A stretch of 64,000 nucleotides of DNA from assembly GCF_003385955.1 (NCBI RefSeq), contig NZ_QRDW01000003.1, positions 310,001-374,000 on the forward strand, read 5' to 3'. This document shows, piece after piece, positions 4,767 through 10,200 of the stretch. The stretch is from Aestuariispira insulae (lineage in GTDB: Bacteria; Pseudomonadota; Alphaproteobacteria; UBA8366; Aestuariispiraceae). Numbering within the stretch: the first letter of the stretch is position 1; every line of letters starts with the position of its first letter. A program made the position numbers and the translations under genes. The notes under the pieces were generated by a model. It did not search any database. It had not been told where the DNA came from and was given only the letters and a program-made list of their open reading frames with translations.

Positions 4767-4856
4767 GCTCTCTTCCTTTCGGACCTGTTGTTAATACCGC
4801 TATGCTACAAGCGTATCAGAGCCAAAAGGATAAGGCTAACGACATGCCCAGGCAAA

Positions 4857-4877
4857 AGAGCGGCATTCTGCCGCTCT
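4857..4877 (-). terminator. Terminator of the PEP-CTERM operon
   Basis: AGAGCGGCA and TGCCGCTCT form a perfect 9-bp stem with a TTC loop. Read on the minus strand it is followed by TTTTG. It sits 18 bp beyond the stop of the second PEP-CTERM gene. Confidence 0.75.
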
Positions 4878-4894
4878 GATGCAACAGACCGGCC

Positions 4895-5611
4895 CTATCT
4901 TCGCCGTCGCCGAAACACGCCAAGCCCGATCAGGCCAAAACCGATCAAAGCCAGGGTGCCGGGTTCCGGCACTTCCTGGGGGGCGATGGCAAAGGTTTCG
5001 AGCCGGCCGATGTCAAAACGGCCCCGTGTGCCGAAAAAGTCGATCGTATCCTGGCGGGTCAACTCGGAGTCACCATAGGAAAAACCGAGCGCACCGTCTC
5101 CCCAGTTCAGTCCGACCAGACCGAAGTCAGTGCCGTTGATGCCGAAACGAGGCCCGGAGACAGGATGATTATAGGTTTGATAAGCGCCATAATCATCACC
5201 GCTGGTATCCTTATTCTGGCTATGGCGAACACCGGTGGTCAGATTGAAAATGAAGGCCGTGCGGTCGGCAGGATCCGGGGTCATGACATTTCCGTTTATG
5301 GCCGCATTCCAGCTTTGCGGATTGTATCCGCCTAAAGTCATGCTCTTTCCGTTGGCAATCACTTCCATGATCACAAAAGTCGGACCTTTGTTGTCAACAG
5401 CGGCATGCCAGTTCAGGCCTGTGTGATGTTGGTGCTTTGTATAGATGTTCGTGAGGGTCAGGTCATCCATGTCCAACCAGATTTCCAACTGATTGGCATC
5501 TGCCCTGCTTAAAAGGTCACTGCCGCCTGCAATCACGGCTGCGGTTGCGGGGGTGGCCAGATAACCGGTGGCGAGAAAACCGATTGCAGATAAGATTTGC
5601 AGTTTCTTCAT
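4895..5611 (-). CDS. PEP-CTERM sorting domain protein with TLDc-like mature domain (second gene of pair)
   Basis: This is an exported protein of 238 aa. A signal peptide covers about residues 1-25 (ATPATAA). The C-terminus has a typical PEP-CTERM tripartite signal: 'VPEPGTLALIGFGLIGLGVF' followed by RRRRR. Exosortase would therefore cut it and attach it to the cell surface or exopolysaccharide. The middle shares with its neighbour the patterns 'WHAAVDN', 'GGYNPQSW' and 'DRTAFIFNL', a late 'GPRFGINGTDFGLV' and 'LGFSYGD'. This order resembles TLDc domains (inference). The start codon overlaps the stop of the upstream paralogue (ATGA), so the two form an operon. No exosortase gene is in this window. 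Confidence 0.88.
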   Translation of the reverse strand: MKKLQILSAIGFLATGYLATPATAAVIAGGSDLLSRADANQLEIWLDMDDLTLTNIYTKHQHHTGLNWHAAVDNKGPTFVIMEVIANGKSMTLGGYNPQSWNAAINGNVMTPDPADRTAFIFNLTTGVRHSQNKDTSGDDYGAYQTYNHPVSGPRFGINGTDFGLVGLNWGDGALGFSYGDSELTRQDTIDFFGTRGRFDIGRLETFAIAPQEVPEPGTLALIGFGLIGLGVFRRRRR

Positions 5612-6330
5612 CGTTTTTCCCTCCTGCGCATGGCAAGGCCCATCAGCCCCAGGCCCATCAGGGCAAGGGAACCGGGGGCGGTGACATCGGTGTGTGTGTG
5701 ATGTGCAATGGTAAAGGTCTCGATTTTACTAACCGCGATGCGGCGATGGCCGCCGACAAAGGATTCGGCATAATCATTGTCACCGCGCCGGGAAACATCG
5801 CCATAGCTGTATCCTAGGTTACTGCTCAGATAGTTGAGATCAGATGTGACGCGCAGATCCATGCCGACACCGAAAGCGGGGCCGAGTTGCAGGCTGTTAA
5901 AGGTCTGGAACCGACCGTAGCTGGTGGTCAGATCCTGATCCAGTTTCATCCCCAGGGAGAGGTTGTAAATGAAGGCGGTGCGATCAGCTTCATCGCGGGT
6001 TAACCGGTAAGTCCTGAGGCTGGCATCCCAGGAATAGGGGTTGTATCCGCCGACCAACATGGTTTGGGCACCGAGGTTTATTTCGATCAGGGTGAAGCTG
6101 CGGACCCGATTGTCAACTGCGTCATGCCAATCGGTGGCACGGTCGCTATCCTGTTGCTGATAGATGCTGGTCAGGGCAAGCGGACCTTCACCAAGCCAGT
6201 TTTCCAGCTGGGTCAGGTGGCTGTCGTTGAGTAAGTCGCTGTCTCCGATGATCACGCCGGCGGTTGCCTTGCCGGTCAATCCAGCGCTGGTCATCATCAG
6301 GGAAAAGAGCAGGTAAGTTAGTTTTTTCAT
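5608..6330 (-). CDS. PEP-CTERM-like sorting protein with TLDc-like mature domain (first gene of pair)
   Basis: This 240-aa secreted paralogue of the next gene has a signal peptide at about residues 1-24 ('LTGKATAG'). Its C-terminus, 'APGSLALMGLGLMGLAMRRR', is a variant PEP-CTERM signal with PGS in place of PEPGT. The middle carries 'WHDAVDN', 'GGYNPYSWDA', 'DRTAFIYNL', 'GPAFGVGMDLRV' and 'NLGYSYGD', the same motif order as its neighbour. That order matches TLDc domains, which normally have a GGY..SW core and a late GP-FG-G-D-L motif (inference). Transcription probably starts from the sigma-54-type promoter at 6376-6391. The weaker sorting motif may affect processing efficiency. Confidence 0.85.
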   Translation of the reverse strand: MKKLTYLLFSLMMTSAGLTGKATAGVIIGDSDLLNDSHLTQLENWLGEGPLALTSIYQQQDSDRATDWHDAVDNRVRSFTLIEINLGAQTMLVGGYNPYSWDASLRTYRLTRDEADRTAFIYNLSLGMKLDQDLTTSYGRFQTFNSLQLGPAFGVGMDLRVTSDLNYLSSNLGYSYGDVSRRGDNDYAESFVGGHRRIAVSKIETFTIAHHTHTDVTAPGSLALMGLGLMGLAMRRREKR

Positions 6331-6375: not shown

Positions 6376-6391
6376 AGCAAGGACTGTGCCG
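6376..6391 (-). promoter_or_regulatory. Sigma-54 (RpoN)-type promoter for the PEP-CTERM operon
   Basis: The minus strand reads CGGCACAGTCCTTGCT. It has GG and GC exactly 10 bases apart, matching the -24/-12 consensus TGGCACG-N4-TTGCW at all positions but two. The predicted transcript would start about 35 bases before ATG 6330. In exosortase systems, PEP-CTERM genes are known to be driven by RpoN with the PrsK/PrsR two-component pair, which fits this placement. No prsR-type activator gene is in the window. Confidence 0.7.
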
Positions 6392-6489
6392 GAAGAAAAA
6401 ATCAAAGGATTGCATGTGGTTAATGAATAGTAGAATGCGATCCTAGTATCAGGTTGTAAAATACATCGTCTACACCAAATGCGGTATAT

Positions 6490-6520
6490 AAAACGGGCGG
6501 CTAATATAGCCGCCCGTTTT
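6490..6520 (-). terminator. Terminator after the BON lipoprotein gene
   Basis: AAAACGGGCGGCT and AGCCGCCCGTTTT form a 13-bp perfect stem around a five-base loop. Read on the minus strand the stem ends in TTTT, and it lies 31 bp past the stop of the BON gene. Confidence 0.8.
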
Positions 6521-6551: not shown

Positions 6552-7154
6552 TTATTTCGCCCGGACAAAGGCGTGGTTCACCACCCGGCGGACTTTTTCC
6601 GTATCCCGTGCAATGGCAACAACCTTGTTCATTTCCGCCTGGCTGAGCGCCCGGCCGAATAGATACAGTGTGCCGTTGACCGATTGGTAGCGCCAGTTGG
6701 ACTGGGTGACACCGGCAGTGGTGGCCAGTTTGCCAAAAAATTTCTGCTTGATCACCACATCGTCGACCAGATTGCTTTCCGCATCCGGGTCCACCACCTG
6801 CAGCTCGTTATAAACGGTTTTGCTGTCGGGATGGCTGTTGACGACTTCGGCCACTTTGATCCGGTCATCGCGGCTTTCCACTTCGCCGGTGATCATCACA
6901 TTGCCTTCATAAACGTCGAAGGTGAGCAGGGCGGCCAGTTTGGTGGTCATGCGATTATTCACATCGGCAATCAGGCCGGCTTTCAGCTCTGCATCGGCGG
7001 CAATCTGTTCACCGGTCCGGTCCTCAAGCGCCATTTCGATGGCCGCGATCGGCGGCCCGCATGAGGCGATCAGCGGGCTGGCGATGGCCAGGCCGATCAG
7101 GATGGCCACTGTTCTGGCCCCCCGGAACGCCTGGAATTGAGTGGTTTGTGTCAT
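6552..7154 (-). CDS. BON domain lipoprotein
   Basis: This is a 200-aa envelope protein. The N-terminus has a hydrophobic segment ending in a lipobox-like 'LIASC' (Cys32), so it is probably a lipoprotein. Two BON-type repeats follow, at about residues 65-112 ('VNNRMTTKLAALLTFDVYEGNVMITGEV' region, with the typical V.I.G.V strand) and about 130-200 ('WRYQSVNGTLYLFGRALSQ', then 'VRRVVNHAFV'). Proteins of this layout (OsmY/DolP-like) bind phospholipid membranes and support envelope integrity. It is a single gene with its own terminator. The relatively long N-terminal stretch before the hydrophobic core is slightly unusual. Confidence 0.85.
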   Translation of the reverse strand: MTQTTQFQAFRGARTVAILIGLAIASPLIASCGPPIAAIEMALEDRTGEQIAADAELKAGLIADVNNRMTTKLAALLTFDVYEGNVMITGEVESRDDRIKVAEVVNSHPDSKTVYNELQVVDPDAESNLVDDVVIKQKFFGKLATTAGVTQSNWRYQSVNGTLYLFGRALSQAEMNKVVAIARDTEKVRRVVNHAFVRAK

Positions 7155-7209: not shown

Positions 7210-10200
7210 TTATCCGACAACAAGATTACGAAGTTCCCGTCCGACAACCGCCAGCATGGCCAGATCCAATTGTGGCAGGTTACCGAGCTCGCCCAGCAGC
7301 TGGTCCACCCGCTCCACCGATTCCGCCCGTTTGGCGATCCAGGCGTCGATGGCGTCACAACCGGAATCGCCATGGCTGAGGATTCTGGCGGTGAGGTCGG
7401 TCTGCAATCCCCACAGATCATCAATGATCGCGCCAAGCGCCATGCGATGCCATTGGCTTGATGCCGGGATCCGGTTGGCGGCAGACCGCAGCCAATCCAT
7501 GCCAAAACGTGCGCCGACCGCGGAATAGGTATTGCCCACTTCCTTGACCGGCTGATCGGCCTTGGCGGCAAGCCGCACCACGTCACAGGCGGAAGAAAGC
7601 ACCTTTAGCTGACCGATGGCCTGGGCCAGTTCATCCGGCACGCCTTTCTTCTTAAAGCGTTCGGTCCGTTTATACATATTATCCAGCGCCACCGGGCCGA
7701 GGATACTCTCCATATGTTCTTTCAGGGTTTGCACGCCGGACTGGTAGGTCTCGATATTGCGTGAGATATCCAGCGGGTGATCTTCATTGCGCAGGAACCA
7801 TTCGGTCATGCGGTTGATGGTCCGACCAGTTTCCTGAAGCATCAGATACTGGATTGAGGAATCAGCGATATTGTCCAATTCCTCAATTTGGTTCCATAGC
7901 TCCCGCATGCCAAAGACTTCCCGCACAATGGTGTAGGCCCGTGCGATCTCGGGGCTGGACATGCCGGTGCGCAGGTTCATCTCGTTGACGAAACTCGGTC
8001 CGGTCCGGTTGATCATCGAGTTGGTGACAACGGTGGCGATAATCTCCCGGCGCAGCCGGTGGGTCAGGACATTGGCGTAATATTTGACCCGAAGCGGCTC
8101 CGGGAAATAGCGGATCAGGTCTTCGGACAAAAGAGTATCATCCGGCAGGTCGGAATCCAGCAATTCCTGATAGGTGACATTCTTGGCATAGGCCAGGATC
8201 ACCGACAGTTCTGGCCGGGTCAGGCCCTTTTGCGCCTGCAGCCGCTCGCCGATTTCCTCGTCATCGGGGAGGAATTCCAGGCTCCGGTCCAGATGCCCGG
8301 CCCGTTCCAGCGACCGGATCAGACGCTGATGCCGGTCCAGCTCGCTGGCGGCGCGCAGATGCGTGACCGAAATGGACTGGGTCTGCTGGTAATTGTCCCG
8401 CAGCACCAGAGAGGAAACCTCATCGGTCATGGCGACCAGCAACTTGTTGCGCTGTTTTTCGGTCATGTCGCCATTGCCGACCACATCGCCCAGCAGGATC
8501 TTGATATTGACCTCATGGTCCGAGCAGTCAACACCGGCGGAATTATCTATGGCGTCCGTATTGCAGCGCCCGCCCTTCTGTGCAAACTCAATCCGCGCAC
8601 GATGGGTGACCCCCAGGTTGGCCCCTTCGCCGATGACCTTGCAGTTGAGATCCGCCGCATTGACGCGGAGTGAATCATTGGCGCGATCACCGGCATCAGC
8701 ATGGGTCTCGTCGCTTTCCTTGATATAGGTGCCGATGCCACCAAACCACAGGAGATCCACCTGCGCTTTAAGAAGCGCGCTGATCAGTTTGTTGGGCGGC
8801 AGCGCCTTGTCTTCTACATTCAGCAGCTTGCGGATTTCCGGGGTCAGTTCGATGGATTTCGCCGACCGGTTAAAGATGCCGCCACCCTTGGAAATAAGTT
8901 TGGTATCGTAGGCATCCCACCCTTTAACCTCTTCAAACAGACGTTTGCGCTCGGCAAAGGTCTTGGCCGCATCCGGGTTGGGGTCGATGAAGATATGCAG
9001 ATGGTTGAAGGCGCCGACCAGGCGGATATGTTCGGACAAAAGCATGCCGTTGCCGAACACGTCACCGCCCATATCGCCAACACCGACCACGGTGAAATCC
9101 TGGGACTGGGTGTCATGGCCAAATTCACGGAAATGGCGTTTGACGGATTCCCAGGCACCCTTGGCGGTGATGCCCATTTTTTTATGGTCATACCCGTCTG
9201 AGCCACCGGAGGCGAAAGCATCGCCCAACCAGAAATCATTCTTGACCGAGATGGCATTGGAATAATCGGAGAAGGTCGCCGTGCCCTTATCCGCAGCAAC
9301 CACCAGATAGGGATCATCCTGATCCTTGCGGATGACATCCACCGGCGGAATGACGGTGGTACCTTTCAGGTTGTCGGTAATGTCCAGCATGCCCTGGATG
9401 AAGGTCTGGTAACAGGTGATGCCTTCTTTCATGAAGGCTTCCCGGTCGGCCATGGGCGGGGCTTTCTTCAGCACAAAGCCGCCCTTGGAACCCACCGGTA
9501 CAATCACCGCATTCTTGACCTGCTGGGCTTTGACCAGGCCTAAAATCTCGGTCCGGAAATCCTCCCGCCGGTCAGACCAGCGCAAGCCGCCGCGAGCAAC
9601 CATGCCAAAGCGCAGATGGACCGCCTCAAACCGCGGGGAATAGACAAAGATCTCGCGCAGCGGTGCCGGCTGGGGGATCTCGTCAATTTCGCGGCTGGCA
9701 AATTTCAGCGAGACATAGGGTTTATAATGTCCGTCCTGGTCCTTCTGGTAGAAATTGGTGCGCAAGGTGGCGCCGACAATATTGATGAAGCGCCGCAAGA
9801 TCCGGTCTTCGTCCAGGTTGTCGACCATATCCAGCTTGATATCAATGACATTGCGCAAACCTTCTTCGCGATGTTTGCCGTCTTCGTCCGTGTCGTCCTC
9901 GGGCTGGGCGTCGGGGTCGAAGCGGACCTTGAACAGTTTGGCGATATCGGCGGCCAGATCGGCATTCTTGGCCAGCGTCTCTTCCATATATTCCTGGGAG
10001 AAGGGGATGGAGGCCTGACGCAGATATTTGGAATAGGCGCGCAGGACAACCACATCGCGCCAATTGAGGCCGGCGGCCAGAACCAGCTGGTTAAATCCGT
10101 CATCCTCGATGTCGCCATTCCAGACCCGGCGGAAACTTTCATGGAACGCATCGCGGATCGCATGGAAATTGATCGGCGATTTATCCGATGTCTCCAGGGT

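Follow-up and report, generated by a model that had tools for sequence, protein, structure and literature searches.

The window, a stretch of 64,000 nucleotides from the 4.82 Mb (99% complete) genome of Aestuariispira insulae, carries a pair of overlapping minus-strand open reading frames, an upstream one encoding 240 amino acids and a downstream one encoding 238 (Table 1). The original prediction had placed two exosortase-type surface proteins with a TLDc-like domain here, and the pair was found at the same coordinates. The reading frames overlap by 4 bp, an ATGA in which the start codon of the 238-residue gene meets the stop codon of the 240-residue gene; this arrangement suggests that both are probably read from one transcript with translational coupling. 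A full-length comparison of the two products gives 41% identity (E 6e-56). Each consists of a signal-peptide-like start, a globular domain of about 190 residues and a PEP-CTERM tail, and neither contains a cysteine. Genes for a BON-domain protein and an XRE-type regulator neighbour the pair in the window; exopolysaccharide genes do not. The BON-domain protein (6552-7154, minus strand) adjoins the pair, has a lipoprotein-like start and matches PRK11023, a model for an outer-membrane-stress lipoprotein, below cut-off. Strong G+C-rich inverted repeats at 4848-4880 and 6485-6520 flank the gene pair and appear terminator-like by eye; both lack the T-tail sought by the terminator scan. The consensus scan around the gene pair returned neither a sigma-70 promoter nor a T-tailed terminator.

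Table 1 Features of the PEP-CTERM TLDc gene pair and its upstream region.
Feature	Coordinates	Strand	Basis
240-aa PEP-CTERM TLDc protein, first gene	5608..6330	-	ORF; NF038124 196.4 bits; PF07589 25.2 bits
240-aa protein parts: signal peptide (about aa 1-24), TLDc domain, tail DVTAPGSLALMGLGLMGLAMRRREKR			
238-aa PEP-CTERM TLDc protein, second gene	4895..5611	-	ORF; NF038124 257.4 bits; PF07534 26.5 bits
Mature TLDc domain (aa 25-213) of the 238-aa protein, modelled part	4973..5539	-	AlphaFold2 and structural matches
PEP-CTERM sorting tail EVPEPGTLALIGFGLIGLGVFRRRRR of the 238-aa protein	4898..4975	-	PF07589 31.3 bits; TIGR02595 27.6 bits
Variant PEP-CTERM tail of the 240-aa protein, TAPGS for PEPGT	5611..5688	-	PF07589 25.2 bits; TIGR02595 15.6 bits
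Sigma-54-like promoter CGGCACAGTCCTTGCT (GG-N10-GC)	6376..6391	-	Consensus scan, 10/12 positions

Sorting signals and predicted regulation

Both tails scored above the PF07589 cut-off of 20.7 bits. For TIGR02595 the tail of the 238-residue protein was above the cut-off of 16 and that of the 240-residue protein slightly below it. The latter is a PGS variant (DVTAPGSLAL), as originally predicted. Several other PEP-CTERM proteins of the source genome carry PAP instead of PEP, so the TAPGS tail is little out of the ordinary and gives no sign of decay. Twelve other open reading frames of the genome have a PEP-CTERM tail in common with the family model. Recognition of such tails by XrtA is established for the exosortase system, and XrtA was the sole exosortase found in the genome (260.7 bits, cut-off 208). 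Its locus, on a different contig from the TLDc pair, also holds a PrsR response regulator, a PrsT TPR protein and an XrtA-type polysaccharide deacetylase. The predicted exosortase sorting of both proteins is thus supported by the PEP-CTERM matches together with the genomic XrtA system.

The sigma-54-like site lies 45 bp ahead of the first start codon. Sites matching 10-11 of 12 positions stand 56-61 bp upstream of three other PEP-CTERM genes, and two further PEP-CTERM genes have 9/12 sites at 54 and 73 bp. A score of 10/12 was reached by 12 of 558 background blocks of 300 bases. With about 2% expected, its occurrence in 4 of 13 upstream regions has a binomial probability of about 1e-4, a figure for which the threshold was chosen after the site had been seen. 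The window as a whole has a mild excess of sigma-54-like sites (12, against 3-10 in simulation). RpoN is encoded in the source genome, and its presence together with the promoter matches makes a PrsR/RpoN regulatory link likely. A comparison of the regions ahead of the PEP-CTERM genes brought out no common enhancer word. Sigma-54-like sites recur 45-73 bp ahead of several of these genes (L059-L067), which suggests that they form one PrsR/RpoN regulon.

Family membership and predicted fold

TLDc proteins have roles in oxidative stress, neurological disease and control of the V-ATPase. Both proteins of the pair matched NF038124 ("PEP_CTERM-anchored TLD domain-containing protein", PEP_CTERM_TLD_A) over nearly their whole length and far above its curated cut-off of 100 bits, and a search of the whole genome recovered them at 256.8 and 195.9 bits. 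By profile, then, the pair are members of an already named NCBIfam family, which they resemble throughout, from signal peptide to TLDc domain to PEP-CTERM tail. Most NF038124 members found belong to another proteobacterial family and are single genes; the pair in the window differs in that its genes overlap and have diverged. The general TLDc profile PF07534 matched the 238-residue protein above its gathering score of 24.5 (residues 30-165, profile positions 4-128 of 170); for the 240-residue protein it reported no match, even at E 10. The HMM search proposed at the outset therefore bore out one copy and left the other unreported, and the TLDc character assigned to the 240-residue protein rests on its identity to the other copy and on NF038124. 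PF07534 also matched 16 of 23 NF038124-family homologues (best E 1e-10), in some of them nearly end to end (L046, positions 4-169 of 170).

The five motifs on which the original prediction was built (WH.AVDN, GGYNP.SW, DRTAFI.NL, GP.FG....D and LG.SYGD) are all present in the predicted order, and across the 23 homologues the key residues vary little or not at all. Many of the invariant columns fall within these motifs, namely H69, D73, GGYNP 94-98, W101, R117, F120 and N123, followed by GP 153-154, FG 156-157, D162 and Y179. The invariant polar residues of the family are H69, D73, N97, R117, N123, Q132 and D162.

The mature domain of the 238-residue protein was modelled with AlphaFold2, without templates and from three sequences. 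Confidence was low (pLDDT 55, pTM 0.59). When this model was compared with 350,542 PDB chains using Foldseek, the first five ranks were TLDc chains (mEAK-7, Oxr1 and Skywalker/TBC1D24; E 0.001-0.013). In VIA-align, TLDc entries occupied ranks 1-10 (Z 7.7-9.3, 127-141 residues aligned), nine being recognisable as TLDc by title and the title of the remaining one, 8ar9, naming no protein; the next row fell to Z 5.0, with unrelated beta-sandwiches. Cutting the model to the mature domain improved on the full-length version, also from three sequences, which was poor (pLDDT 46) and had mEAK-7 as its top, non-significant Foldseek matches. Sequence searches of the PDB with the protein and with a 23-member profile returned no TLDc chain and nothing significant; the solved TLDc structures are too distant for the sequence route. 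The 238-residue protein is accordingly predicted to have a TLDc fold, as read from a low-confidence model of this one copy. Within that limit the structural check proposed at the outset bears out this copy, and the TLDc-like domain put forward originally is upheld by PF07534, NF038124, Foldseek and VIA-align. The likeness to the PF07534 proteins OXR1, NCOA7, mEAK-7 and TBC1D24 lies in the sequence profile of the 238-residue copy and in the predicted fold; unlike them, the window proteins carry export and surface-sorting signals and are free of the eukaryotic proteins' other domains.

Distribution, descent and gene neighbourhoods of relatives

An exosortase-anchored bacterial TLDc domain had been called unusual. 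Rarity of TLDc in the phylum was found, PF07534 occurring in 1 of 299 genomes of a phylum sample, the source genome; the combination of domain and tail is already the named family NF038124, so that the description is right only in part. What is new is therefore the occurrence of diverged tandem members in a class poor in them, together with the likely sigma-54 link. A search of the open-access literature for PEP-CTERM paired with TLDc or TLD domain gave no paper, and the family is apparently unstudied beyond its database model. NF038124 was present in 1 of 43 genomes of the source genome's order (the source genome alone), in 2 of 385 genomes of its class, in one alphaproteobacterial metagenome bin (L012), and in 42 of 245 genomes and 5 of 44 genera of another proteobacterial family, which, judged by gene content, is probably Oxalobacteraceae. 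Such scattered occurrence points to horizontal transfer or to frequent loss, two histories that the tree cannot separate. No relatives were found in viral contigs, plasmids, phages or PHROGs, and these collections thus lend no support to a mobile origin. The grouping of the two window copies in the tree is weak (74/0 support) and both sit on long branches; an old tandem duplication is the likely, though unproven, origin of the pair. In one relative genome (L058, G905:C80:40556-42030) a broken TLDc copy with two internal TGA codons stands beside an intact one, a tandem pair of which one copy is decaying.

The surroundings of the TLDc gene in relatives follow two arrangements. At five loci of one clade (L017-L020 and L056, TLDc gene at about 8000-8750) it belongs to a cassette of constant order: GalE, ManC, the TLDc gene, a TIGR03790 protein, an ExeM/NucH nuclease and an NF038129 PEP-CTERM protein. 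At seven loci of another clade the TLDc gene precedes an ABC ATPase gene, after which come TIGR03008, related to CAAX proteases, and EpsL; most of these loci also have the priming transferase WcaJ and EpsD. Both arrangements place the TLDc gene near exopolysaccharide and exosortase-system genes. Eight further loci in that bacterial family lack the GalE-ManC cassette, and TIGR03790 has no match in the source genome. The extracellular nuclease and two sorted surface proteins of the five-locus cassette may point to a matrix-DNA function there.

Proposed role of the exported TLDc domain

The reading that best explains the locus as a whole, and that is considered somewhat probable, is an XrtA-sorted protein of the surface or matrix, associated with exopolysaccharide, in which the TLDc domain serves as a non-enzymatic binding module. 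Both genes would be co-transcribed from the matched sigma-54 promoter under PrsR, and their products, judged by inspection of the signal peptides, would be exported through Sec. The XrtA of the genome would then recognise the C-terminal PEP-CTERM tail, so that the TLDc beta-sandwich, a globular domain, would remain either on the surface of the cell or within the exopolysaccharide matrix, where binding by the domain may retain exopolysaccharide or other matrix partners at the cell. This last step draws on the gene neighbourhoods of relatives and on the precedent of PepA, an RpoN-dependent PEP-CTERM protein that moves exopolysaccharide from the soluble to the cell-bound fraction and restores flocs (PMC9850573). 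PepA of Aquincola and Zoogloea (NF033554) resembles the window proteins in its PEP-CTERM tail, the type of PrsT/PrsR system and a sigma-54-type promoter, but the match is limited to the sorting tail and the globular part is unmatched. Other PEP-CTERM genes tried in the floc study gave no rescue (PMC9850573), so PepA cannot stand in for all PEP-CTERM proteins. This counts against the proposed reading, as do the low confidence of the model, the window's own neighbours of the pair, which are not exopolysaccharide genes, and the position of the XrtA locus on a different contig.

Several other explanations were weighed. An enzymatic or redox-protective TLDc domain at the surface, guarding for example the envelope against oxidants in the manner of OXR1 in eukaryotic cells, is considered unlikely. 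It would be in keeping with the protection against oxidative stress afforded by eukaryotic TLDc proteins, for which a short OXR1 isoform that is nearly all TLDc suffices (PMC5614904), and with the family's retention of its invariant polar residues. Against it, TLDc has no known enzymatic activity, and none has been reported for OXR1 (PMC5614904); neither window protein has a cysteine, and the gene neighbours of relatives indicate exopolysaccharide, not redox chemistry. A link to matrix DNA or to a nuclease, in place of polysaccharide binding, appears no more probable than redox protection: the ExeM/NucH and TIGR03790 cassette that speaks for it occurs at five loci of one clade, but it is missing from eight other loci of the same family and from the window, and no TIGR03790 protein is encoded in the genome.

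Modulation of a proton-pumping V-type ATPase, the role played in eukaryotes, is regarded as extremely improbable here. Binding to the V-ATPase is a known property of the TLDc module (PMC8608904, PMC9263379), some of the TLDc chains among the top structural matches come from structures of V-ATPase complexes, and mEAK-7 contacts the peripheral-stalk subunit E (PMC9263379). A search of the genome for V/A-type ATPase subunit E (PF01991), however, found no homologue, and the export and sorting signals would put the protein on the wrong side of the membrane. With the subunit missing and the exported protein out of reach, the eukaryotic role is not transferable. It is also quite improbable, somewhat more so than a redox or nuclease-linked function, that the pair consists of drifting duplicates with almost no function, retained by chance. 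Their low mutual identity and long branches, and the variant tail and missing PF07534 match of the 240-residue copy, could be read in that way; yet both reading frames are intact, the invariant residues of the family are kept, and the NF038124 scores are about twice the cut-off or more.

Compared with the overall reading of a sorted, exopolysaccharide-associated surface protein, the more general proposal that bacteria export the TLDc domain as a module for binding polysaccharide or matrix outside the cell is tentative and stands on the doubtful side. To our knowledge, polysaccharide or matrix binding has so far not been assigned to TLDc. The domain's own function could be studied cleanly in a small, single-domain, exported TLDc protein whose genome encodes no detectable stalk partner from the V-ATPase. 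If the proposal is true, it would suggest that binding of ligands or surfaces is a general trait of the TLDc fold, and V-ATPase binding one eukaryotic use of it.
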